NCBI RefSeq assembly: GCF_001598235.1
Contig: NZ_BCYO01000008.1
Location: forward strand, 1 to 64,000
DNA from: Polaromonas jejuensis NBRC 106434
GTDB taxonomy: Bacteria; Pseudomonadota; Gammaproteobacteria; Burkholderiales; Burkholderiaceae_C
Direction: 5' to 3'
Length of the DNA stretch: 64,000 bases
Below, piece by piece: positions 7,254-22,450 of this stretch (within the stretch, counting starts at the first letter, position 1; each line of letters opens with the position of its first letter). The notes beneath the pieces are model-generated. The model did not search any database, was not told the DNA's origin, and worked only from the letters and a program-made list of their open reading frames with translations. The position numbers and the translations under genes are program-made.

Positions 7254-7321
7254 GCTCAATGGCCAGTTACCTGACGGTACTTTCCAGCCTCGCGCGCCCA
7301 TTTACGTAGATCCATCTGGCA
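7254..7321. repeat. 68-bp direct repeat, copy 1
   Basis: By eye it is identical at 62 of 68 positions to 22383-22450, in the same orientation. On the minus strand it encodes MDLRKWAREAGKYRQVTGH and a stop. It also covers the last codons of the TniQ-like gene. The two copies bracket about 15 kb. Its origin (mobile-element end, attachment site or conserved 3' gene fragment) is unknown. Confidence 0.8.
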
Positions 7322-8357
7322 TACCCATATACATAGCATCCAAAACAATGAGTTGAGCGACAAGTGAGCTGCTTGAGGTGTGTCCGCTAAGCGAAGACTG
7401 CACGTAATATTTGTCAAGTGGAAACAGGAGAATTTCACTCACGCCGTCAGGTGATTGCACCCCCCACTTTGTACCAATTCGGTCTGATAAAACTTCTAGC
7501 GCTGTACGAGGAGAATCAAAAGATGCTCGAAACTTTTTTACCAGCTCTGCCCATGCGTTTGGTCTGAATTTTTCACTTCGCGTGTAAAACGCGTCCTCGC
7601 ATTGCGAAATCAACGAGAGATATCCTTTATTCGCAGTTGCCGGTAGATCAGTGAACCGTGCTGACCCACATGCGGTACAACTTTCCCCAGGTAGCCTGAA
7701 CTGATTTCCGGTGTCTAGTGGTCTCTTACAATCTTCGCAGCACACGCTTAAGGGCACCCCATGGACTGAGCAGGAGCGGATGAATGGCAGCTGATGAATA
7801 ACTCGCCAAGCGGCAAACCCCAGCTTCAACTGATCGGAACAAGCACAAATTGAGCACCACCTCAACCCGAGGGCTCCCGCCTCAGGCACATAGATTCTTT
7901 TGTATTGAGCAGGTCTCACCGACGTTCCCACCTTTAACTGGGCCGCCCATTTTGACTCAACAGACTTGCTGAGCCCTAATGCGTAGAACCCAAAAAGGGT
8001 ATTTTGCCGAAGCACCTGATCTGGTGTCAGGGAGTCTGCAAAGTAGCTGCGGGCAATGTTATTCGCACCCACACCGAAAAGATTGGATGCGATCCCTTTG
8101 CGGTGCCCGTAAACTCGTTCCATCGCAAGCCCTCTACTCGGATACCCCCCAAATCTCTGGGCAATTACTACCGCTGAATAGATCAACGAGCCCGGAGGAA
8201 GAAGCGGAGAAAACGCTGGAAGGGCTGTTGTGAACTCTATTCTTGATGCTACGTTCACGAAAACTGCTTCCTTGGAAAAGTTGTGGACTTTAGACAATAA
8301 AACGCTGACACCAAAATGTGGATCTCTCTCTGAAAGGTTGTTGTGGACTCTTTTCAA
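7302..8357 (-). CDS. TniQ/TnsD-family transposition targeting protein
   Basis: This 351-residue protein has the TniQ layout: LLPPGSLIYSAVVIAQRFGG (residues about 53-72), a helical middle, then zinc-knuckle segments RWCSICACSD, CSVHGVPLSVCCEDC and CTACGS. TniQ/TnsD proteins choose the target site for Tn7- and Tn5053-like transposons. No transposase (TniA/TnsB) or ATPase (TniB/TnsC) is present, so it is an orphan. The first about 46 residues are encoded by the motif array at 8223-8468, and the conserved domain starts only after it. The real start may differ (a GTG near 8259 is possible) or the N-terminus may have been replaced. Confidence 0.7.
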   Translation of the reverse strand: MKRVHNNLSERDPHFGVSVLLSKVHNFSKEAVFVNVASRIEFTTALPAFSPLLPPGSLIYSAVVIAQRFGGYPSRGLAMERVYGHRKGIASNLFGVGANNIARSYFADSLTPDQVLRQNTLFGFYALGLSKSVESKWAAQLKVGTSVRPAQYKRIYVPEAGALGLRWCSICACSDQLKLGFAAWRVIHQLPFIRSCSVHGVPLSVCCEDCKRPLDTGNQFRLPGESCTACGSARFTDLPATANKGYLSLISQCEDAFYTRSEKFRPNAWAELVKKFRASFDSPRTALEVLSDRIGTKWGVQSPDGVSEILLFPLDKYYVQSSLSGHTSSSSLVAQLIVLDAMYMGMPDGST

Positions 8358-9501: not shown

Positions 9502-9531
9502 CGACAGATACCCGGCGTGCAAGAGACACAT

Positions 9532-9897
9532 ATGACCGCGTTGCTTGAGCAACGTTACGGTCGCAGGTGGACATATCCGCTAGTGGTCGCGCTGGTATGC
9601 GTCGTGGGCTTGCTCCGCGTCGACCCCGGCGCGATTGCCGCTGGGAAGCCCGTAACGCACACTGTTGTTATCGAAGCGTTGAAATACGCGCCCGACACCC
9701 TCACGGTCAAACGCGGTGACATGGTTGTGTGGATCAATAAAGACCCGTTTCCTCACACCGTCACCGCAAACGGCGTCTTTGATTCGCACGACATCGCGGC
9801 CAGCCGCTCATGGAAGTACACGGCGCGCACCCCAGGCGAATTCGCATACATCTGCAAGCTTCATCCGACAATGAAGGGAGCGCTGACAGTCGAATGA
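9532..9897 (+). CDS. Plastocyanin/amicyanin-like cupredoxin
   Basis: This 121-residue secreted blue-copper protein has an N-terminal hydrophobic helix (about 15-37) followed by a cupredoxin domain with the type-1 copper ligands in place: H75 (PFPHTV), then C108, H111 and M114 in YICKLHPTM. It would shuttle electrons or bind copper in the periplasm. An upstream in-frame ATG at 9517 exists, but AAGAG about 6 bases before 9532 favours the later start. It lies just after the DUF4142 gene. Confidence 0.85.
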   Translation: MTALLEQRYGRRWTYPLVVALVCVVGLLRVDPGAIAAGKPVTHTVVIEALKYAPDTLTVKRGDMVVWINKDPFPHTVTANGVFDSHDIAASRSWKYTARTPGEFAYICKLHPTMKGALTVE

Positions 9898-10265
9898 GTT
9901 CTGCGCTTTTCGTGGTGCCGACTCACTTCCATCCGACTGTGGGCTTTCGGGAGGCATCTCCAATGGCTGGTTGTGATTCGAGGCTTGCCCGCCGCCTGAT
10001 TTCAATCAATACTCGCTCGCGCTGCACAAGAGCCGGTCAAACGGAAAAACTGACATCCCAAGTCGAATGACCGCCCCCGAGTTCCAAGCACCGGCAACGA
10101 ATGTCAGCTTCTCGCCCAGGCGAACAGCATGCGGGTATTTGCGGGGAGTTGCAGCGGCGGAGGAAGCACCAGCCCCATCTCCGCAAGCTTTGCTTCAATT
10201 CTTGCCACGGTAAGCTCCTCGTTTTTTCCCTTGATACCGCGTGCAGTGCGCGGTCGCCAAGCGAA
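9898..10265. other. Intergenic stretch, no gene seen
   Basis: About 370 bases between the cupredoxin stop and the cupin stop. No frame with natural composition, RNA gene or repeat was recognised. Confidence 0.45.
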
Positions 10266-10706
10266 TCATCGCAGGATGACCCATCGTTTCATTGCCAACC
10301 GGTCGCATTGCTTTTGAGCTGGTCTTATGGCCCCCCGGTCATCCAGTTCGGGGTGCATCACAACGCTTTCCTGGGCCGTCGACTCATTACGTACACCAAT
10401 GAACACTGCGGGCACTTCGCGACGGTTCACCGCGACATGCGGAACACCAGCGGGAATAAAGAGATAGTCCCCGGGATGTGCCACTTCCCGATGCTCCAGC
10501 GCGCCGCCCGTCCACAGTTCGACTTCGCCCCCTCTCATCATGTAGAAAGCCGATTCGTGAAGTGCGTGAATATGCGCCTTGGTTCGACCTTCAGGGGGAA
10601 TCGTGACCATTCCGAGAAACAGCGCCTGCGCTCCAACCGACTCTTTGCTGATGCCCGGTGTGTATTTCGATCCCTGCCTGCTCACATAACTGGCCGAACC
10701 GGACAC
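10266..10706 (-). CDS. Cupin-domain protein, probably 5'-disrupted
   Basis: This small single-domain cupin has KAHIHALHES (metal-binding His/Glu), GGEVELWTG and GDYLFIPAGVPHVAVN. ESVVMHPELD closes the domain. The frame offered here starts at GTG 10706. Twelve codons upstream, in the same frame, an ATG at 10742 has a good GGGAG ribosome-binding site, but its eighth codon is TAA (10719-10721). The homologous region (CVV, then SRQGS, then PGISKESVGA) begins right after that stop. The gene has therefore probably suffered a nonsense mutation and may survive only through the weak GTG. The substrate is unknown. Confidence 0.65.
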   Translation of the reverse strand: MSGSASYVSRQGSKYTPGISKESVGAQALFLGMVTIPPEGRTKAHIHALHESAFYMMRGGEVELWTGGALEHREVAHPGDYLFIPAGVPHVAVNRREVPAVFIGVRNESTAQESVVMHPELDDRGAIRPAQKQCDRLAMKRWVILR

Positions 10707-10829
10707 AACACATCCGAATTATCTTTGATCTGCAGTTTCCATTTGTGAATCTCCCGGAAACATCAAGCAAAGCAAAATACGCCCGCGCCTTTGGGGCGTC
10801 AACCGACCGACGGAGTATGCCGGACGGGC

Positions 10830-11201
10830 TCAGTCCATCAAGGAGGGGGTATTTGCACTTGTCATTGCGATGACATTCATTTCGAACTTGACCAATTCAG
10901 CGGCGAGCCCGGGAAGTCTTTCGACCTGGCCGGCACCATATCGCACTTCGAGTGCAAGATTTTCACCCTCGACATAGCCAAGCTCGCAAAGACCTTGCCT
11001 AAATGCTTCCAGTGCGGGAGTTGCTTGCGCGGGTATTCCGTTGCCTGCCGTAGAAGCCGTTGCGCGAGGGGAAAAAGCCGAATTGAGGATCAGACCAATC
11101 CGTGCGGTGCTGGCTGCTTGCTGGGCAGTGGAAAAGCGTGGCGCTGCGGTGAGTCCCAAAAATACGATGGCGGTCAACGCGATCATCTCGTTGAGCTTCA
11201 T
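10830..11201 (-). pseudogene. ABC transporter substrate-binding protein (ABC_sub_bind), N-terminal fragment
   Basis: About 123 codons begin with a signal peptide (MKLNEMIALTAIVFLGLTAAP) and continue as ABC-type periplasmic binding proteins of the family with FRQGLCELGYVEGENLALEVRYG and RLPGLAAELVK. The match ends after NVIAMTSANT, where a stop follows. Full-length members have over 300 residues, so roughly two thirds are missing. No permease or ATPase is nearby. Confidence 0.75.
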
Positions 11202-11327
11202 TGCCTTTTCTCCCGGCATCAACCAAGGGGAACCCACTCTAGGCTTGACATCGCGGCTTGTCCAGACTCAGTATTGACGTGCGCAATCACGGGTGCTACT
11301 CTGACCCTCCGTACTGAGGAGCGCGCC

Positions 11328-11972
11328 ATGACACCATGGGACATTCAGGGCACCGAGCTGATCAACTGCAATTGCTCGTACGGCTGCCCGTGCCAGTTCA
11401 ATGCACTACCCACCAAGGGATTCTGCGAAGCCATGGGGGCAATCTCCATCGAGAAAGGCCACTTCGGGGAGGTGCCGCTCGACGGGCTGAAGATCGGCGT
11501 GGTGTTCAGCTGGCCCGGCCCCATCCACGAAGGCAAAGGCAAGTGCCAGCCCATCGTCGACACCAAGGCGTCACCGCAGCAACGCGAGGCTCTTCTGAAG
11601 ATCATGTCGGGCGAGGAAACCGAGCCCTTTGCAACCATGTTCTCAGTGTTCGCCTCGACCATGGAAACAGTCTATGAGCCGATCTTCACCAGGATCGATT
11701 ACGACGTGAATGTCGAGGGCCGGCGCGGCGTGGTGCATGTCCAGGACGTGTTCGATCTCGTCGGTGAGCCGATCCGCAACCCCGTCACCGGCCAGGAACA
11801 CCGTGCCCGCATCGACCTTCCGAACGGCTTTGAATATGAAATCGCGGAAATCGGCTCCGCGACCAGCCGATCCATGGGCAAGCTCGCGGTCGACCTGAAG
11901 AACAGCTACGCGCAGTTCGCCCGGCTTCACTTGAACAACAAGGGTATCGTGCGCCATCGCGCAGCCGTGTGA
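11328..11972 (+). CDS. DUF1326 protein with N-terminal Cys cluster
   Basis: This 214-residue cytoplasmic protein of the DUF1326 family has its hallmark cysteine cluster at 14-22 (NCNCSYGCPCQFN). The remainder is a beta-rich domain. The cluster suggests metal binding. The frame is open far upstream, but GAGGAG 8 bases before the ATG at 11328 sets the start. The DUF2182 membrane-protein gene begins inside the stop (TGATG), so the two are translationally coupled. The pair recurs in proteobacteria, but no biochemical role is established to my knowledge. Confidence 0.85.
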   Translation: MTPWDIQGTELINCNCSYGCPCQFNALPTKGFCEAMGAISIEKGHFGEVPLDGLKIGVVFSWPGPIHEGKGKCQPIVDTKASPQQREALLKIMSGEETEPFATMFSVFASTMETVYEPIFTRIDYDVNVEGRRGVVHVQDVFDLVGEPIRNPVTGQEHRARIDLPNGFEYEIAEIGSATSRSMGKLAVDLKNSYAQFARLHLNNKGIVRHRAAV

Positions 11973-12760
11973 TGGGACCGGAGGCCCTGCTGCGGCACGA
12001 GCGCCCGATCATCGTCTGCGGGATCGCGGCAGTCTTCGCACTCTCCTGGGTGTACATCTGGCAGGGGGCTGGAATGGGCATGTCGGCGCTCGACATGACC
12101 ACCCTCAGCCTGTTTCCCCATCGCCAGACGAGCATGGAAGGCAGCATGGAGGCGAGTTGGCGGATCGTCGCCGCCATGTGGTGGGTCATGATGATTGCCA
12201 TGATGACGCCCAGCGCGACGCCGCTGGTGCTGCTTTATTCGAAGGTGCTGGAGCGGCAGTCGGGACCCATGGCCCGCCGCTACGCGGCCACTTCGCTTCT
12301 GATGGCTGGCTATCTGGTGGTGTGGCTGGCCTTTTCGGTGGTGGCCGCGACGCTGCAAAAGATGCTCGAGCCCGCCGGGCTCATCTCGGGGATGATGCTC
12401 TGGTCGCGCAGCGCGGCCCTGTCGGCGGGGGTGCTGGCGGCTGCGGGCCTGTACCAGTTTTCCGGCACCAAGCGCGCGTGTCTGACCCAGTGCCGCTCAC
12501 CCGTTCGCTTTCTGACCCAGTACGCGCGCCCGGGTATCGGGGCGGGCTTCATGCTTGGCATGCGCCACGGCGCTTTCTGTGTGGGGTGTTGCTGGCTGCT
12601 GATGGCCTTGCTATTCGTCGGCGGGATCATGAACCTGATCTGGATCGCCGCGCTGATGCTCTTTGTGTTGGTCGAGAAGCTGATGCCGGCCGGGGCTACA
12701 TTCGGCAGGGTATCGGGAGCACTCATGATTCTCTGGGCGGGTGCGACCCTTCTTGTTTGA
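11972..12760 (+). CDS. DUF2182 integral membrane protein
   Basis: This 262-residue polytopic protein has about six to seven hydrophobic helices and the Met-rich signature MWWVMMIAMMTPSATPLVLLY. It also has a CxxC-like YQFSGTKRACLTQCRSP segment and FCVGCCWLLM in later helices. These Met, Cys and His features suggest metal handling in the membrane. The ATG overlaps the DUF1326 stop by one base; an in-frame GTG three bases earlier is less likely. Confidence 0.85.
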   Translation: MGPEALLRHERPIIVCGIAAVFALSWVYIWQGAGMGMSALDMTTLSLFPHRQTSMEGSMEASWRIVAAMWWVMMIAMMTPSATPLVLLYSKVLERQSGPMARRYAATSLLMAGYLVVWLAFSVVAATLQKMLEPAGLISGMMLWSRSAALSAGVLAAAGLYQFSGTKRACLTQCRSPVRFLTQYARPGIGAGFMLGMRHGAFCVGCCWLLMALLFVGGIMNLIWIAALMLFVLVEKLMPAGATFGRVSGALMILWAGATLLV

Positions 12761-13789: not shown

Positions 13790-14254
13790 CTATCTCATCC
13801 ATCGCTGCCGCAGCAGATGGTCGAGGGAGCAGCTTCCGGCCCCCCGGCATAGCAGCACCAGCAGCATCGCGGCCCACTGGATATGCGTAGGCCAGGCTTG
13901 CGGGTAGATGAATATCTCGATGACCGCGGTCATGCCCAGAAGTACCAGCGCCACCGGCCTGCTCGCCAATCCGAGCACCAGCAGTACTGGCGCACTCAAC
14001 TCGATCGAAACTGCCATGTAGGCGGCAATTTCCGGAGGTATGAGCGGCACCTTGTACTCTTCGCGAAACAGCTCCACGGCAGTCGCCCAATTGGCCAGCT
14101 TGGTCATGGCGGAATTCCAGAACACTGTGGCCACCGCGAGCCGCAGCGGGATGGCCAGGAGTGTGTAGGGCACCTGGTCGAGCCAACCGACGAGGCGCAC
14201 CATCGGGTTGTCATGCGCCGCTTGCGGCTTGATGGATGGGGGCGAATTTTTCAT
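13790..14254 (-). CDS. DoxX-family membrane protein
   Basis: This 154-residue protein has four hydrophobic helices typical of DoxX: LLAIPLRLAVATVFWNSAMTK, AAYMAVSIELSAPVLLVLG, PVALVLLGMTAVIEI and WAAMLLVLLCRGAG. It is the last gene of the DUF2282-DUF692-DUF2063-DoxX operon, where DoxX is a frequent partner of unclear role, perhaps redox or export. The frame is open to 14425, but that overlaps the preceding gene. The ATG at 14254, 17 bases after the DUF2063 stop, fits an operon start. Confidence 0.85.
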   Translation of the reverse strand: MKNSPPSIKPQAAHDNPMVRLVGWLDQVPYTLLAIPLRLAVATVFWNSAMTKLANWATAVELFREEYKVPLIPPEIAAYMAVSIELSAPVLLVLGLASRPVALVLLGMTAVIEIFIYPQAWPTHIQWAAMLLVLLCRGAGSCSLDHLLRQRWMR

Positions 14255-14271
14255 GTTCGAATCGTCCGGGG

Positions 14272-15066
14272 TTAAAGCGCCATCGTCCGGCTCGCCTGGC
14301 TGAAACTCGCATAGCATCCGCGCGCCAGGTGAGCGGCGAGCAAGCGGTGCGGCTCGGCACAAGATGCCGCCGCCAGCGCCGCGCCCAGTGGTTGCCCCGA
14401 AAACAGCGCTGCGGCAACCCGCCATTCGGGCTCGCTCAGGCGCACCGTGTGGACATCGTCGCCCGTTCGTTGAACCAGCAGCCAGACCGGACCGTCGGCA
14501 AGGTTTATCGCCGCCATGGCATCATCATCACGCCCCAGCACCGCGTGCCAGACCGCGTCGGCCGGGAACTCGCAGCGCAGCAGTTGCGTCGCCGGGTCCG
14601 GCACCAGGCGCAGGTCTTCGAGCGCTGCCTCGCCCAGGGTCGCCAGACGCGCGATCTCCAGCGGTTCGGCGTCGGCCGCGTGCAGCACGAGGTTGACCTT
14701 CCATTCGAGCCTGGCCAGGTCCGGCAGATAAGGCAGCGACGCCGCCTGCCCAAGTTGTGCCAGAAATTGCGGGAAGTCCGCGCCATACGCATCCAGCCAG
14801 GCACTGCGGGGTGGAGCCTGCGCCGCGAACAGGCGCGCCGCGCCCTCGAAGAATTCCACGCCCACCACATGTTGCACGGCCGGAAAGGCCAGGCGAAGTG
14901 CCGTCACCAGCACGCCGGCCGAGGTGTTGCGGTAAATGCCGATCCGCTCCTGCGGGTCCAATCCTTCGTTGATGACAAAGGCCGATGCGTCCCCGTCCAC
15001 GCCGCCCAGCAGGCTGTGGCGAATCGCCAGCTGGAGTTCAAGCAATGTTGGCGCAGGCGGCCTCAT
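14272..15066 (-). CDS. DUF2063 (HvfC/BufC-like) partner of the DUF692 enzyme
   Basis: This 264-residue protein begins with LLELQLAIRHSLLGG and RIGIYRNTSAGVLVTALRLAFPAV, the conserved N-terminal signature of DUF2063. Members work with DUF692 enzymes as precursor-recognition partners in RiPP-like maturation. Many carry the misleading label DNA-binding domain. Its start overlaps the DUF692 3' end by 29 bases, implying coupled translation and complex formation. DoxX follows. Confidence 0.87.
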   Translation of the reverse strand: MRPPAPTLLELQLAIRHSLLGGVDGDASAFVINEGLDPQERIGIYRNTSAGVLVTALRLAFPAVQHVVGVEFFEGAARLFAAQAPPRSAWLDAYGADFPQFLAQLGQAASLPYLPDLARLEWKVNLVLHAADAEPLEIARLATLGEAALEDLRLVPDPATQLLRCEFPADAVWHAVLGRDDDAMAAINLADGPVWLLVQRTGDDVHTVRLSEPEWRVAAALFSGQPLGAALAAASCAEPHRLLAAHLARGCYASFSQASRTMAL

Positions 15067-15928
15067 GGCGGTGTTCCTTGAGTATGACCTCGGCGACGGC
15101 TGCTTCCTCCATCAGGACTTCAAGCGCAGGCACATGGGTATCCCACTCGATCAGTGTCGGAATCGGGCCGAAGCGCGCGAGCGCCTCTCGATAGAGCGTC
15201 CAGACCGCCGGCGCGACGCGCGAGCCGTGGTCGTCGATGCGCAGCGTCCTGCCCCGACCGAACTCGCGGATGCTGTGTCCGGCAAGGTGGATTTCGCCGA
15301 TGGCCGCTGGAGGCAAGGCCGCAAGGTAGGTCAGCGTATCCCAGCCGTGATTGCAGGCGCTGACGTAGATATTGTTGACGTCGCACAGAATACCGCAGCC
15401 GGTTCGTTGCGCGACATGCGCCAGGAACTCCCACTCGGGAATGGTCGAGTGCCGGAAACGCAGATAAGTCGACGGATTCTCGATGAGGATGCGCCGCCTC
15501 AGGTGCATCTGAACCTGGTCGACATGATGACAGACGATGGCCAAGGCCTCTTCAGTCAAGGGCAGCGGCAGCAGGTCGGCCAGATAGGTGCCGCCGCTCA
15601 CGCTCCACGACAAATGCTCGGAGATCAGTCCGGGTTCTACCCTGTCGACAACATCTCGCAGACGCCCAAGATGGGCGGTGTCCAGCCCGTCGGCACTGCC
15701 CAGGGACAGGCCGACGCCATGCAGCGAGATCGGGTAGTCGCGGCGAATCGCGTCGAGGTAGCGTGGCGCCGTGCCGCCGCCCATGTAGTTTTCGCTATGC
15801 ACCTCGAACCACGCGACATCGGGACGCGCCTCGGCGACCGGCTGATGGTGCCGAAAGCGCAACCCGATACCGGCGCGCGCGGGAATTTGGTCAGGTGCCT
15901 CCCGCGCCTTGGCCAAAGCGACTCGCAT
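15038..15928 (-). CDS. DUF692 multinuclear non-heme iron oxidase (MNIO), BufB-like
   Basis: This 296-residue TIM-barrel enzyme of the DUF692/MNIO family shows the metal-ligand motifs in order: WFEVHSENYMGG, SLHGVGLSLGS, SEHLSWS, LIENPSTYL, CDVNNIYVSACNHGWD, IHLAGH, IDDHGS and LIEWDTHVPAL. Characterised members oxidise cysteine residues of small precursor peptides using an iron cluster and O2. Here the precursor is the DUF2282 protein 14 bases upstream. The ATG at 15928 fits operon spacing. Confidence 0.92.
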   Translation of the reverse strand: MRVALAKAREAPDQIPARAGIGLRFRHHQPVAEARPDVAWFEVHSENYMGGGTAPRYLDAIRRDYPISLHGVGLSLGSADGLDTAHLGRLRDVVDRVEPGLISEHLSWSVSGGTYLADLLPLPLTEEALAIVCHHVDQVQMHLRRRILIENPSTYLRFRHSTIPEWEFLAHVAQRTGCGILCDVNNIYVSACNHGWDTLTYLAALPPAAIGEIHLAGHSIREFGRGRTLRIDDHGSRVAPAVWTLYREALARFGPIPTLIEWDTHVPALEVLMEEAAVAEVILKEHRHEAACANIA

Positions 15929-15942
15929 AGGCTTGTGTCCGC

Positions 15943-16263
15943 CTAGCTTGCCTTCAGCTTGCCGCCCTGAATCTTGGAACAGTCACCCGCCGGCAGCAGC
16001 ACAAAGGACTTTGCGTCGCGCGCCTGCGTGGACAGGCCGGCGCAGGAATGCGCGCCTTCCGCGCAATCGTTCTTGGCCACCGCATTGATGCCGTAGCATT
16101 TCTCCAGCTTGTTTTGCGTCATCCGCATCATGTTGTCCTTGACGACCTGCGGCGCGTTGCTCATGTCCTTCGTGCCCTGCGCCTGTCCCGGCACCGCCAG
16201 AAATGCCAGCGCGAGACCGATCGTTGCAGACAGCGTCGAAGCTGCCAATACCTGTTTGCTCAT
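15943..16263 (-). CDS. DUF2282 precursor, bufferin-like periplasmic metallophore
   Basis: This 106-residue exported peptide has a signal sequence of about 28 residues (AFLAVPGQAQ). The mature part has four cysteines, C56, C67, C74 and C95, in KCYGINAVAKNDCAEGAHSC and LLPAGDCSKI. This is the DUF2282 pattern. Related precursors in Caulobacter were reported to have cysteines converted to sulfur heterocycles and to bind copper in the periplasm. It is the first gene of the operon, about 60 bases downstream of a SigF-like promoter. Modification chemistry here is inferred from family. Confidence 0.9.
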   Translation of the reverse strand: MSKQVLAASTLSATIGLALAFLAVPGQAQGTKDMSNAPQVVKDNMMRMTQNKLEKCYGINAVAKNDCAEGAHSCAGLSTQARDAKSFVLLPAGDCSKIQGGKLKAS

Positions 16264-16329
16264 CTGGGTTTCTCCTCAAGCTAAAAAAGGTAGGTTCACG
16301 GGGCGCAGGATTGCAACCCTGAAATGAGA

Positions 16330-16355
16330 TTCGACCGGCGGCGAGCAAAGGTTAC
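16330..16355 (-). promoter_or_regulatory. SigF-type ECF promoter for the DUF2282 operon
   Basis: On the minus strand GTAACC (16355-16350) and CGAA (16333-16330) are separated by exactly 16 bases. This matches the -35 GTAACC and -10 CGAA elements described for Caulobacter SigF-controlled DUF2282/DUF692 operons. The start of transcription would be near 16323, giving a leader of about 60 bases. The divergent gene encodes an ECF sigma factor, the expected user of this promoter. Confidence 0.75.
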
Positions 16356-16410
16356 TGGGCACGCAACATTTATTTGTTCGAAATGGTCCCTCCAAAGTGG
16401 AAAATCGGTC

Positions 16411-17070
16411 ATGTCCTCCAAAACGCTGCCAATCGGTCCAACGCCGAGTCCGGAGCCGGATGCCCAAGGTCCGGAGGCACCCGGGCGCGAACCCATCGCC
16501 GCGGAGACCCGCGCCGACGGCAGGCTCGATTGGTCCATCCTCATGGCACGGGCGCAAGGGGGTGACCGTGATGCCTACCGACGCCTGCTCGAAGCAATCA
16601 CGCCCTATTTACGGGCGCTCGCAGCCCGCCGCATCGGGAATCGAAGCGATCTTGAGGATACGGTTCAAGACATTCTTCTGACCGTGCACACGGTGCGCCA
16701 CACCTACGACCCGGCCCTCCCATTCGGCCCCTGGCTGCTTACCATCGCCAAGCGGCGCATCGTTGACGGGCTGAGGCGGCAGGAGCGTTCCAGTGCGCAT
16801 GAATTACCGATTGAGCTCGAACACGAAACCTTGTGGGCCTCCCACGCGAACTTACAGGAAGAGGCAGCGGACGCCCGCGTGCTGCGCGAAGCCATTGAGC
16901 ATCTGCCCGCCGGACAACGGGATGCGATACGAATGCTGAAACTCGAAGAAATGTCATTGCAGGAAGCGTCGGCGGCCAGCGCAATGTCGGTTGTTTCGTT
17001 GAAGGTGGCAACGCATAGGGCCTTGAAGAAGCTGCGCGCGATGATCGAAAAGTCAGGAGACCGGACATGA
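16411..17070 (+). CDS. ECF RNA polymerase sigma factor (SigF-like)
   Basis: This 219-residue sigma-70-family protein has region 2 at about 45-115 (DAYRRLLEAITPYLRALA, DLEDTVQDILLTVHTVRHTYDP, FGPWLLTIAKRRIVD) and region 4 near the C-terminus (LPAGQRDAIRMLKLEEMSLQEAS, VVSLKVATHRALKKLR). The start MSSKTL at 16411 is chosen. The open frame continues to 16324 but runs into the divergent promoter. It overlaps the NrsF gene by four bases, the classic sigma/anti-sigma arrangement, and faces the DUF2282 operon it probably controls. Confidence 0.9.
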   Translation: MSSKTLPIGPTPSPEPDAQGPEAPGREPIAAETRADGRLDWSILMARAQGGDRDAYRRLLEAITPYLRALAARRIGNRSDLEDTVQDILLTVHTVRHTYDPALPFGPWLLTIAKRRIVDGLRRQERSSAHELPIELEHETLWASHANLQEEAADARVLREAIEHLPAGQRDAIRMLKLEEMSLQEASAASAMSVVSLKVATHRALKKLRAMIEKSGDRT

Positions 17071-17729
17071 TCTCAACCTCCGAAGTCATCGATTCACTGG
17101 TGGCTGACGCAAAACCGGTGCGGCGCCTGCGGCCGCCTGCGCTGCGGGCGCTTTGCTGGCTGCTGTTTTCGGCGCTGATACTGGTGCTGGTCGCCTTCGG
17201 TCATGGCGTGCGACCGGATCTCCTGCTCAAGCTGCGCCAACCGGTTTTTGCCGCCGGCCTTGCGGCGGCCTTGGCGACCGGCGTTCTGGCTGCGATAGCG
17301 TCGTTTATGGCGAGTGTTCCCGGCCGATCGCGATGGTGGCAGCTACTGCCGGCGCCCGCGCTGGCCGCGTGGATTTCCACGATTGGCTATGGCTGCCTCA
17401 CGGACTGGGTCAGCATGGGACCAGAAGGCATGTCCCCCGGCGAAACCGCGCGCTGTTTTGCCACGCTGGCGCTCACCAGCATCCCGCTGTCGCTGGTGCA
17501 GCTCTTCATGCTGCGCTACATGGCGCGTCTGTCACCGGTGCCCGTAGCGATGATGGGGAGTCTTGCGGTCGCCGCGATGACGGCGGTCGCACTGTCACTG
17601 TTTCATCCGATCGACGCAACGGTCTTGATCCTGTTTTGGAACTTCGGCGTTGCGGCGCTGTTCTTGACCTTCAGCGGGCTTTATGGCAAGCGCCTGCTGG
17701 AGTGGCTTGCCGGCTACGGCGGCAGGTGA
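17067..17729 (+). CDS. NrsF-family (DUF1109) membrane anti-sigma factor
   Basis: This 220-residue protein has a short cytosolic N-terminus followed by six hydrophobic helices, as in NrsF. The Caulobacter homologue holds SigF at the membrane and releases it under chromate, cadmium or copper stress. Conserved cysteines appear in GYGCLTDW and ARCFATLAL, where the Caulobacter protein senses metal. The ATG lies within the sigma stop region (ATGA). Its 3' end overlaps the convergent small Cys-rich gene by 16 bases. Confidence 0.88.
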   Translation: MISTSEVIDSLVADAKPVRRLRPPALRALCWLLFSALILVLVAFGHGVRPDLLLKLRQPVFAAGLAAALATGVLAAIASFMASVPGRSRWWQLLPAPALAAWISTIGYGCLTDWVSMGPEGMSPGETARCFATLALTSIPLSLVQLFMLRYMARLSPVPVAMMGSLAVAAMTAVALSLFHPIDATVLILFWNFGVAALFLTFSGLYGKRLLEWLAGYGGR

Positions 17730-17968
17730 GCTGAAAAGACGGCTGATCTGCCACAGCAGCCGACCAGCCGACCGTGTTCCTGAATTGGCGGGCACGGCAC
17801 CGTCCCATACGAGCAGAAGACACAGCAGTCGCCTGGTTTCGGTTTGAGTACGGCGTGGCAGGCCGTGCACTCATAAAACCATTGACAGGCGTCGGTGGGC
17901 ATGCGTTCCGTTTTGGCGTGGCCGCAATGCGGGCAGGTCAGGGTCGAATCCAGGAGCACCGCGCTCAT
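17714..17968 (-). CDS. Small Cys-rich GDCCVFCSYGTVPCPP protein of mer-type clusters
   Basis: This 84-residue protein has an N-terminal zinc-ribbon-like CPHCGH and CTACHA pair, then the distinctive GDCCVFCSYGTVPCPPIQ block and a CCG. Proteins with this block sit beside merTP genes in many proteobacteria and are usually unnamed. The abundant cysteines suggest thiophilic metal binding. The start overlaps the merP stop (ATGA), so it is the third gene of the merT-merP operon. Confidence 0.8.
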   Translation of the reverse strand: MSAVLLDSTLTCPHCGHAKTERMPTDACQWFYECTACHAVLKPKPGDCCVFCSYGTVPCPPIQEHGRLVGCCGRSAVFSAHLPP

Positions 17969-18249
17969 TTCGAAGTCCCTATCAGTGTTGACGGATAGCC
18001 CGCATTTCGGGTGGCCTGGGTCAGGGCATCGACGCTGGTCCTGGCATCGTCAAACGTGACCCTCGCCTGACGCTTGTCGAAGTTCACCTCGGCCTGACTC
18101 ACGCCCGGAACCCGGGTGAGTGCTTTTTTGACGGTGATCGGGCACACCGGGCAATCCATGCCCGGCACGGCCAGCGTGACCGTCCTGGTCGCGGCCCAGA
18201 CCGGGCCCATCAACACGGCCACGGCAGTCATGGCCAACAGTCTTTTCAT
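17965..18249 (-). CDS. merP: Periplasmic mercury-binding protein MerP
   Basis: This 94-residue protein has a signal peptide (1-20, VWAA) and one heavy-metal-associated domain with GMDCPVCPITVKKAL, the two Hg-binding cysteines at 33 and 36. It passes Hg(II) in the periplasm to MerT. It is preceded by merT (12-base gap) and overlaps the next small gene. Confidence 0.93.
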   Translation of the reverse strand: MKRLLAMTAVAVLMGPVWAATRTVTLAVPGMDCPVCPITVKKALTRVPGVSQAEVNFDKRQARVTFDDARTSVDALTQATRNAGYPSTLIGTSK

Positions 18250-18261
18250 GCTTGACTCCTT

Positions 18262-18642
18262 TCAGTAAAACAAGGGCGCCAGGTAGGGAAAGACCAGTGC
18301 GACCAGCACCAACAAGGCCACCAGACCGAACAGCAGTTTGTAGCCACGCTTGACTTGTGGCCGCGCGCAGACTTCACCCACAGCGCATCTGGCGGCTGGC
18401 CGCCAGATGCGCCGCCATGCAAGAAACAATGCCAGCAGCGCCGCGCCAATGAAGATGGGGCGATACGGTTCAAGCAGGGTCAGATTGCCTATCCATGCGC
18501 CCGAGAAACCGAGCGTGATCAACACCAGCGGCCCCAGGCAACAGGTTGAGGCGAGCAGCGCCGCCACACCTCCGGCCAGCAGTGCAGCACGACCGGTCTG
18601 CAGCGGGGGGCGACCCTCTCTCTGGAATGACTCTGGAAACAT
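18262..18642 (-). CDS. merT: Mercuric ion transporter MerT
   Basis: This 126-residue membrane protein has three hydrophobic helices. The first carries the Cys pair C34-C35 ([20 protein letters not shown]). The loop between helices two and three has C86 and C92. It imports Hg(II) received from MerP. The mer promoter's -10 ends only 7 bases before this ATG, so translation from 18642 would be nearly leaderless; no better start with a ribosome-binding site is evident in frame. No merA reductase follows. Confidence 0.92.
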
Positions 18643-18648
18643 GAAGTA

Positions 18649-18679
18649 AGCTTACTTCCGTACTTGAGTACGGAGTCAA
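18649..18679 (-). promoter_or_regulatory. MerR-controlled merT promoter with operator dyad
   Basis: On the minus strand TTGACT (18679-18674) and TAAGCT (18654-18649) are separated by 19 bases, the overlong spacer typical of MerR-activated promoters. The spacer contains the dyad CCGTAC TCAA GTACGG. The arrangement is almost identical to that of the Tn501 mer promoter. Confidence 0.93.
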
Positions 18680-18684
18680 GCGAC

Positions 18685-19095
18685 ATGGAATACCCATTAC
18701 ACAAACTCACCATAGGCGCGCTGGCCGTCGAGGCAGGCGTCAATGTCGAAACCATCCGGTTTTACCAGCGCAAGAAGCTGCTGCCCGAGCCCGAACGTCC
18801 CCAAGGCGGCATTCGCCGCTATGGTCCAGCGGAGGTGTCCCGTGTGCGCTTCATCAAGGCAGCCCAGCGCATCGGGTTCACGCTGGACGAGATCGCCCAG
18901 TTGCTGCAGCTTGAAGACGGCACGCATTGTTCGCAGGCGAGGGACATAGCCGAGCACAAGCTCGCCGATGTCCGCCACCGGCTCGAAGATCTGCGGCGCA
19001 TGGAGTCCACCCTGGCCGATCTGGTCCGGCGTTGCGCCGCCGGACGGGGCAAAATCGCCTGCCCGCTGATTGCGTCCCTGCAGGAGACCCGCTGA
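18685..19095 (+). CDS. merR: Mercury-responsive regulator MerR
   Basis: This 136-residue MerR has an N-terminal winged helix ([19 protein letters not shown]), the long dimer helix, and the three Hg-binding cysteines at 82, 117 and 126, the same numbering as Tn501 MerR. The start MEYPLH at 18685 is the only ATG of the frame; a TTG at 18664 lies within the operator. It is divergent from merT and overlaps its promoter region, so it both represses and, with Hg(II), activates merTP. Confidence 0.95.
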
Positions 19096-22382: not shown

Positions 22383-22450
22383 GCTCAATGGCCAGGTACC
22401 TGACGGTACTTTCCAGCCTCGTATGCCCGTTTATGTAGATCCATCTGGCA
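22383..22450. repeat. 68-bp direct repeat, copy 2
   Basis: Same orientation as 7254-7321, with six mismatches. On the minus strand it encodes MDLHKRAYEAGKYRQVPGH and a stop. It marks the junction between the metal/stress region and the catabolic island that follows. Confidence 0.8.

Follow-up and report, generated by a model that had tools for sequence, protein, structure and literature searches.

A bufferin-1 operon of Polaromonas jejuensis and the His-type NrsF anti-sigma factor encoded beside it

Introduction

Which signal would be sensed by an anti-sigma factor encoded beside a bufferin operon, a metal or an oxidant? This question is raised by a locus of Polaromonas jejuensis NBRC 106434 in which bufABC-doxX, an operon with genes for a bufferin-1 precursor (BufA), an MNIO maturase (BufB), a partner protein (BufC) and a DoxX membrane protein, lies divergent from genes for an extracytoplasmic function (ECF) sigma factor and an anti-sigma factor of the NrsF family. 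The window, that is, the whole stretch of DNA analyzed, comprises 64,000 nucleotides (positions 1 to 64,000 of contig NZ_BCYO01000008.1, assembly GCF_001598235.1). Our reading is that the operon is probably under its own ECF sigma factor, held by an NrsF that carries a histidine in the place of a family cysteine (His-type), and that it deals with periplasmic copper or related metals.

The operon, its promoter and the link to a sigma/NrsF pair are already published, and an earlier note on this DNA, made from the sequence alone, had called the family known. In Caulobacter, a four-gene operon of this kind (CC3254-CC3257, a bufferin-1 operon with an adjoining sigma/NrsF pair) is under the control of SigF through a GTAACC-N16-CGAA motif (PMC3511200). 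Genes for sigma and NrsF were reported with a class of Buf1 clusters, in a text that makes no split of NrsF into types (PMC12452194). The layout of the locus also resembles gigPABT/rpoQ-rsqA of Cupriavidus metallidurans, where a bufferin operon is divergent from sigma and anti-sigma genes; gig is induced by copper and gold, is under periplasmic signals (PMC10304878) and is said to encode bufferins (PMC13192273). Two cysteines mark the NrsF family and have been shown by mutants to be functional; in Caulobacter they are Cys131 and Cys181, both of which are taken to face the periplasm (PMC3511200). In OsrA, the anti-sigma factor of Bradyrhizobium EcfF, Cys179 is essential for the release of sigma after hydrogen peroxide (H2O2) treatment, and Cys129, placed within the membrane, is possibly needed for binding (PMC3420878). 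Homologues with both cysteines have been tied to H2O2 or hypochlorous acid (HOCl) and to these residues (PMC3420878, PMC8315932).

The new part is the His-type branch of NrsF. No description of it was found among the titles and abstract openings given by the literature searches, although an earlier notice in the ECF classification or in subscription literature is possible, and it is not mentioned in the available portions of PMC3511200, PMC12452194, PMC12668002, PMC3420878, PMC8315932, PMC6180224, PMC13192273 and PMC10304878.

A histidine in the place of a family cysteine

The anti-sigma gene and the codons of the three residues in question are the following:

17067..17729, plus strand: nrsF, His-type NrsF anti-sigma factor of 220 amino acids (PF06532, 106.6 bits; Cys110/Cys130/His180)
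17394..17396, plus strand: codon of NrsF Cys110, the extra conserved cysteine of the His-type branch
17454..17456, plus strand: codon of NrsF Cys130, equivalent to Caulobacter Cys131 (Cys in 181/181)
17604..17606, plus strand: codon of NrsF His180, in the place of Caulobacter Cys181 (alignment of 181 NrsF)

The earlier note had described the divergent genes as encoding a SigF-like sigma and an NrsF anti-sigma. Both families are present; the NrsF, however, is not of the Caulobacter sensor type, which has cysteines at both 131 and 181, since it keeps Cys130 and has His180 in the place of Cys181. Its score against the NCBIfam model AntiSigF_NrsF is only 19.7 bits (cut-off 300). OsrA/EcfF of Bradyrhizobium and B0023/B0022 of Brucella belong to the same six-helix anti-sigma family and, unlike the window, their anti-sigma factors keep both Cys129 and Cys179 (PMC3420878, PMC8315932).

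NrsF sequences were gathered from five sources: (i) the window and the loci of a BufB search of named genome contigs, which gave 144 relatives of which the best 80 were kept; (ii) loci from further locus searches; (iii) 12 plasmid regions, from 73 plasmid records matching the window NrsF; (iv) a survey of 398 genomes across the phylum, 81 of them with a match, where 79 of 82 places above cut-off were used (two being this genome's own) and three fragments were left out; and (v) a second sample, from a related family (299 genomes, of which 90 had a match), in which 60 places were taken, namely 15 that scored 85-111 bits over almost the whole length and 45 out of 109 at 182 bits or more. These 45 all came from the upper 73 of the ranking, fragments and one broken copy being left out. 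In the resulting alignment of 181 NrsF every sequence has the Cys131 column as cysteine, and the position-181 column holds Cys in 112, His in 62 (window included), Glu in 6 and a gap in one truncated protein (L044); these totals are not frequencies, because sources (i)-(iii) and the choice made in (v) favour relatives of the window. The phylum survey, the least biased sample, gave 60 Cys, 12 His and 5 Glu outside this genome (n=77), and in the second sample all 15 low scorers were His-type and all 45 high scorers Cys-type. Five other Cupriavidus loci comprise four His-type (L038, L046, L227, L228) and the truncated L044.

The substitution is accompanied by a further cysteine, found within three residues of the Cys110 column in 60/62 His-type proteins vs 2/112 Cys-type ones (L151, L259). 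The two His-type proteins that lack it (L220, L221) keep a cysteine directly before the histidine, as do L214-L216. The alignment calls for caution at this site, where Cys-type proteins mostly have His-Cys (97/112): a one-residue gap would make the histidine retained and the cysteine deleted. The ungapped reading is favoured because an aspartate three residues on is found in 56/62 His-type, 37/112 Cys-type and 6/6 Glu-type proteins. Under either alignment, 57/62 His-type proteins have no cysteine within two residues, and the other five have one directly before the histidine.

In a midpoint-rooted tree of 114 NrsF, which includes a second, Cys-type copy from L151 that is not among the 181, 39 His-type proteins cluster with the truncated L044 in a single group (support 0.959), and the swap thus appears to go back to one old event, kept since, and not to repeated convergence. 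The histidine is present in 39 of the 40 members, alpha- and betaproteobacteria included, the fortieth being L044. By this tree the window NrsF as a mere diverged Caulobacter form is ruled out.

Glu-type proteins are a third type (L192, L193, L199, L201, L202, L225), two of which adjoin bufferin genes; in the same tree the six form a group of their own (support 0.992). His-type NrsF as a class exclusive to bufferins was rejected, as bufferin-free His-type loci exist: L206, L211, L212, L214, L217, L218, L220 and L221 have no bufferin gene in the stretch fetched. The neighbours of three such loci include genes for an amino-acid decarboxylase, a glycosyl transferase and a patatin, with no sign of sigma control. 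On plasmid 3 of Nitrobacter hamburgensis (L143), a plasmid typed as conjugative, a His-type nrsF is followed without a gap by a gene for a TlpA-type thiol-disulfide reductase, and a copper oxidase gene lies about 6 kb on.

An AlphaFold2 model of the window NrsF (mean predicted local distance difference test score 86.1, from an alignment of 23 sequences) has helices at 24-46, 59-82, 96-104, 126-149, 157-179 and 185-217 and a hairpin at 115-124; the third helix is short, consisting of 96-104 and a piece at 89-93. In the model Cys110 lies in the loop that follows helix 3, Cys130 close to the beginning of helix 4 and His180 at the turn that joins helices 5 and 6, a placement by which the three residues would point towards one face. 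A fold search with this model gave no match in the PDB at E <=0.001.

The bufferin operon and its promoter

The operon is encoded on the minus strand and its genes are:

15943..16263, minus strand: bufA, bufferin-1 precursor (DUF2282), 106 amino acids (PF10048, E 1.3e-19, 70.4 bits, cut-off 22.4)
15038..15928, minus strand: bufB, MNIO (DUF692) bufferin maturase, 296 amino acids (PF05114, 351 bits, E 4.5e-105; NCBIfam MNIO_BufB)
14272..15066, minus strand: bufC, DUF2063 partner protein, 264 amino acids (PF09836, 70.4 bits)
13790..14254, minus strand: doxX, DoxX membrane protein, 154 amino acids (PF07681, 60 bits)
16330..16355, minus strand: SigF-type promoter GTAACC-N16-CGAA of bufABC-doxX (0 mismatches)

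The grouping of DUF2282, MNIO DUF692, DUF2063 and DoxX genes in one operon, as previously annotated, is borne out by Pfam and NCBIfam for the families and by the coordinates for the layout. The matches to DUF2282, MbnB_TglH_ChrH, DUF2063, DoxX, Sigma70_r2/r4 and NrsF all exceed curated cut-offs, and BufB scores 382.5 bits (cut-off 310) against NF050167, 'MNIO family bufferin maturase' (MNIO_BufB). With a four-cysteine DUF2282 precursor, a BufB-equivalog maturase, a DUF2063 partner and DoxX in one operon, the locus belongs to the Buf1 clusters. By inspection, a doxX start near 14254 is likelier than the edge of its long open reading frame (ORF). The nearest named relative by BufB, among the best 80 of 144, is Polaromonas sp. 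P2-4 (BufB 90% and NrsF 82% identical).

BufA has an apparent signal peptide, judged by eye only, and cysteines at 56, 67, 74 and 95, as the earlier note gave them; all four columns are >=99% conserved among 117 aligned BufA, where the residue numbers stand 4 higher because the frame used there opens upstream of the start codon. In 124 BufB, 14 His/Asp/Glu/Asn columns reach a rounded conservation of 1.00. Buf1 peptides are modified on the two central cysteines and the outer two are joined as a disulfide (PMC12452194); by analogy, the modified pair is expected to be Cys67/Cys74 and the disulfide pair Cys56/Cys95, so that the mass losses at all four cysteines anticipated before are not expected.

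The promoter reads GTAACCTTTGCTCGCCGCCGGTCGAA on the minus strand (16355-16330), an exact match to the SigF form that had been proposed for it. The bare motif is not above chance genome-wide, with 11 exact sites (spacers N15-17) against 40 for the reversed pattern; a regulon search by genome-wide motif use was dropped on these counts, and the case for the promoter was settled by related loci. A set of 80 loci was assembled from the window, 76 of the best 80 BufB relatives, those with a recognizable bufA, and L021, L022 and L024; start codons were guessed and 260 nt were searched upstream of bufA. The motif is perfect in 22/22 loci with the sigma/NrsF type of the window and in 5/5 with the other type; among the bufferin loci for which no such pair was found, it is perfect in 2/53 and within one mismatch in 3/53. 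Counted by NrsF type at <=1 mismatch, it occurs in 26/26 His-type, 24/25 Cys-type, 2/2 Glu-type and 1/1 truncated loci of the first sample, and in 14/14 His-type and 14/14 Cys-type loci of the second. All NrsF types thus retain the bufA promoter.

Two Paraburkholderia loci, L040 and L049, have bufferin operons with a perfect SigF-type promoter and no sigma/NrsF pair found alongside. L049 is from P. tagetis, in which a different contig carries a His-type pair (L051), and control from elsewhere in the genome is therefore possible.

The sigma gene and its missing self-promoter

16411..17070, plus strand: ECF sigma factor (SigF-like), 219 amino acids (Sigma70_r2 and r4)

The start of the sigma gene is uncertain: the ORF opens at 16324 and the likely start, by inspection, is the ATG at 16411. 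Genes similar to it adjoin NrsF genes in other loci, and a six-helix PF06532 protein encoded after it, together with a GTAACC-N16-CGAA target promoter, identifies an ECF16-type sigma with NrsF. No SigF-type promoter was found before the sigma gene of the window, the best site having 3 mismatches.

This absence is characteristic of the branch. In the first sample (107 loci whose sigma gene lies near nrsF) a self-promoter within one mismatch is present in 49/65 Cys-type and 3/35 His-type loci, and in the second sample in 35/45 and 0/15, respectively (84/110 vs 3/50 together); Glu-type loci gave 0/6 and the truncated type 0/1. Scrambled motifs came within one mismatch in 58/2140 cases. The contrast in the second sample (Fisher 6e-8) overstates independence, because the two samples share at least 3 His-type loci and many loci are closely related. 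In C. metallidurans rpoQ-rsqA is read by the housekeeping RpoD (PMC10304878), a dependence that the missing self-promoter of His-type loci would fit. Self-promoters are present at ecfF of Bradyrhizobium (PMC3420878) and rpoE7 of Sinorhizobium meliloti (PMC6180224), unlike at the window sigma gene. A perfect SigF-type site does precede the sigma gene at L217 and L218, two of the His-type loci with no bufferin gene in the stretch fetched.

The Caulobacter pair thus differs from that of the window in Cys181, in place of which the window has His180 along with Cys110, and in the promoter before sigF; the host of the window belongs to a different bacterial class and mer genes adjoin its pair.

Mer-type and GDCCVxC neighbours

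Four genes follow nrsF, the first of which overlaps its 3' end tail to tail:

17714..17968, minus strand: GDCCVxC-domain protein, 84 amino acids (NCBIfam NF041374, 112 bits, cut-off 40)
17965..18249, minus strand: merP (TIGR02052, 131 bits, cut-off 92.55)
18262..18642, minus strand: merT (NF010314, 191 bits, cut-off 150)
18664..19095, plus strand: merR (TIGR02051, 166.9 bits, cut-off 150.85)

The adjacency of a mer cluster pointed out previously therefore holds, since merR-merT-merP-GDCCVxC pass curated cut-offs and a mer neighbourhood recurs at related loci. The window genes as a mercury-reduction operon were rejected: no MerA in the genome exceeds the curated cut-off (best 336.2 vs 454.45 bits).

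Genes for MerT, MerP, MerA, MerB, MerC or GDCCVxC were sought with our own score limits within 5 kb of bufferin clusters. In the first sample they were found at 14/37 His-type loci with the window (13/36 without it), two of the loci (L054 and L232) being from the same species, and at 0/27 bufferin-linked Cys-type, 0/2 Glu-type and 0/1 truncated loci and 2/57 bufferin loci without a pair; the flank searched was of unequal length in total, about 281 kb for His-type, 137 kb for Cys-type and 448 kb for no-pair loci. By source, the His-type matches were 9/21 in the BufB search plus window, 5/11 on plasmids and 0/5 among three loci of the phylum survey and two of a class search. In the second sample, with fetched stretches of up to 8 kb on each side, a mer-type gene was found at 7/15 His-type and 0/45 Cys-type loci (Fisher 2e-5); at least 3 of these 15 (L244, L245, L249) repeat L046, L050 and L047, and L245 has mer genes. 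Bufferin-linked loci are 14 of the 15 His-type and 14 of the 45 Cys-type loci, and among them the counts are 7/14 vs 0/14 (Fisher 0.006). MerT is above cut-off in 41/200 genomes of the order, which makes chance adjacency unlikely, although the hosts were unmatched.

The order of these genes varies: GDCCVxC directly after doxX (L142), thioredoxin-MerR-MerT-MerP-GDCCVxC after doxX (L230), merBAPT and merR before the sigma gene (L232), or merR-merC-merA beyond doxX (L233). Such variety speaks for repeated association, though metal islands collect genes of this kind. The main text of PMC12452194, in which MerC fusions are mentioned, lacks 'GDCC' and names MerT and MerP a single time each, in the title of a reference; 'GDCCVxC' was not found among the matches listed in a literature search.

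Copper-type genes adjoin the operon on its other side, within 9517-12760: a cupredoxin-like protein (9517-9897), a DUF1326 protein (in 10791-11972) and a protein of the PpoB2 'copper chaperone' family (11969-12760). A 68-nt direct repeat (91%) has copies at 7254-7321 and 22383-22450, about 15 kb apart, the first of which overlaps the end of a TniQ-like ORF (7302-8357, minus strand). The bufferin, mer and copper-type genes all lie between the two copies, in an arrangement that resembles a mobile-element remnant.

A second SigF/NrsF pair in the genome

A Cys-type SigF/NrsF pair is encoded at G000:C5:125718-127009 (L020; NrsF 220 bits). Two GTAACC-N16-CGAA sites lie beside it, the first at the sigma gene, the second on the opposite strand and pointing towards another gene. 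The two anti-sigma types may feed sigma factors that read one motif, and cross-control is therefore possible. The earlier note's picture of a self-contained module is not supported in view of this pair with its two sites, nor of the effect of rpoQ deletion described below.

Proposed mechanism and alternative explanations

In the mechanism that we propose, sigma and NrsF would be made at a steady basal level, as no SigF-type self-promoter was found, and the sigma factor would be held at the inner membrane by the His-type NrsF. The signal would be a stress in the periplasm, with an excess of Cu(I) or of another thiol-seeking metal as the likeliest candidate. Acting at Cys110/Cys130/His180 on the side of NrsF that faces the periplasm, it would free the sigma factor, which would then read GTAACC-N16-CGAA at 16330-16355 and lead to the expression of bufABC-doxX. 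BufB with BufC would modify the two central cysteines of BufA, and the peptide would leave through Sec to buffer the metal in the periplasm. The sequences themselves show the arrangement of the genes, the conservation of the promoter, the residue swap, the lack of a self-promoter and the recurrence of mer/GDCCVxC neighbours; the pairing of sigma and promoter, the modification of the peptide and copper buffering are inferred from the systems cited above, and metal binding by Cys110/Cys130/His180 is a hypothesis. A wider and tentative proposal is that His-type proteins are an anti-sigma class of their own, with direct binding of a soft metal in the periplasm by these three residues. A single motif and a single sigma family would then be coupled to thiol oxidation through the Cys-type and to metal through the His-type; the latter would in most cases have given up the self-promoter and acquired a link to MerT/MerP/GDCCVxC genes, and this genome would hold one of each.

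Several observations weigh against control of the operon by its own sigma and a His-type NrsF. In metal-treated C. metallidurans the deletion of rpoQ raised gig expression (PMC10304878), so that the sigma factor is only a putative driver of gig, and RpoQ is called not essential for this expression (PMC10304878, PMC13192273). A C. metallidurans NrsF is said to keep both cysteines (PMC3511200), by which the best-studied relative may not be His-type. RpoE7 of S. meliloti, which goes with an operon of this type, gave no response to H2O2, Cd or chromate (PMC6180224). Despite the SigF promoter before it, Caulobacter sigF is described as lacking strong autoregulation under metal stress (PMC3511200), and the missing self-promoter may thus matter little. 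In the phylum survey, 9/12 His-type NrsF outside this genome have no bufferin gene in the fetched stretch; L220 and L221, without the new cysteine, and L210, cut by a contig end, are among these nine.

The same module could operate with the His-type NrsF as a thiol-redox switch, in which a Cys110-Cys130 disulfide would form under oxidative or copper-driven oxidation and His180 would be structural only. This is a serious possibility, though one that we hold to fall short of even. The link of Cys-type homologues to H2O2 and HOCl through their cysteines (PMC3420878, PMC8315932) favours it, as does the second cysteine kept in both types, as if a pair were needed; however, the cysteine essential for the H2O2 response of OsrA is the one lost in His-type proteins (PMC3420878), a histidine kept branch-wide is hard to explain by disulfide chemistry, and mer-type neighbours recur. 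Of these two readings, with both of which the data agree, the direct metal site holds more interest and the thiol switch is the more conservative. The substitution might instead be neutral loop drift after one ancestral event, uninformative on the signal. The single His-type group in the tree makes one event likely, and a Glu-type exists too; drift is nonetheless improbable given the retention of the histidine across alpha- and betaproteobacteria and the new cysteine in nearly all His-type proteins, the exceptions L220 and L221 keeping a cysteine next to the histidine.

Control of the operon mainly by the Cys-type SigF (G000:C5) or by another sigma, the local pair being redundant or a brake, would agree with the two sites beside the C5 sigma gene, with gig expression that is not abolished by RpoQ loss, and with the perfect promoters of L040 and L049; we regard it as unlikely, since the motif tracks the local sigma/NrsF pair (27/27 vs 2/53 at 0 mismatches). 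For the mer/GDCCVxC adjacency the chances appear evenly balanced between a functional association and non-functional hitch-hiking on metal islands. The genes occur in several arrangements and orientations, some of them on plasmids, one typed conjugative, and the TniQ-like ORF and the 68-nt repeat lie near the ends of the metal stretch of the window. Against hitch-hiking stand the absence of mer-type genes from all bufferin-linked Cys-type loci of the first sample, the same contrast within one family of genomes (0/45 Cys-type loci, 14 of them bufferin-linked, vs 7/15 His-type) and the presence of MerT above cut-off in only a minor part of the genomes of the order. Preferred here is still control by the local sigma factor under a His-type NrsF.

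Implications

The swap is sharp, extends over a whole branch and is accompanied by a change in the design of the circuit; therefore the question of what these anti-sigma factors sense, metal or peroxide, becomes testable by residue exchange. Mer-type genes were found close to His-type loci but to no Cys-type locus among those examined, which gives a reason to consider bufferins in the context of mercury.

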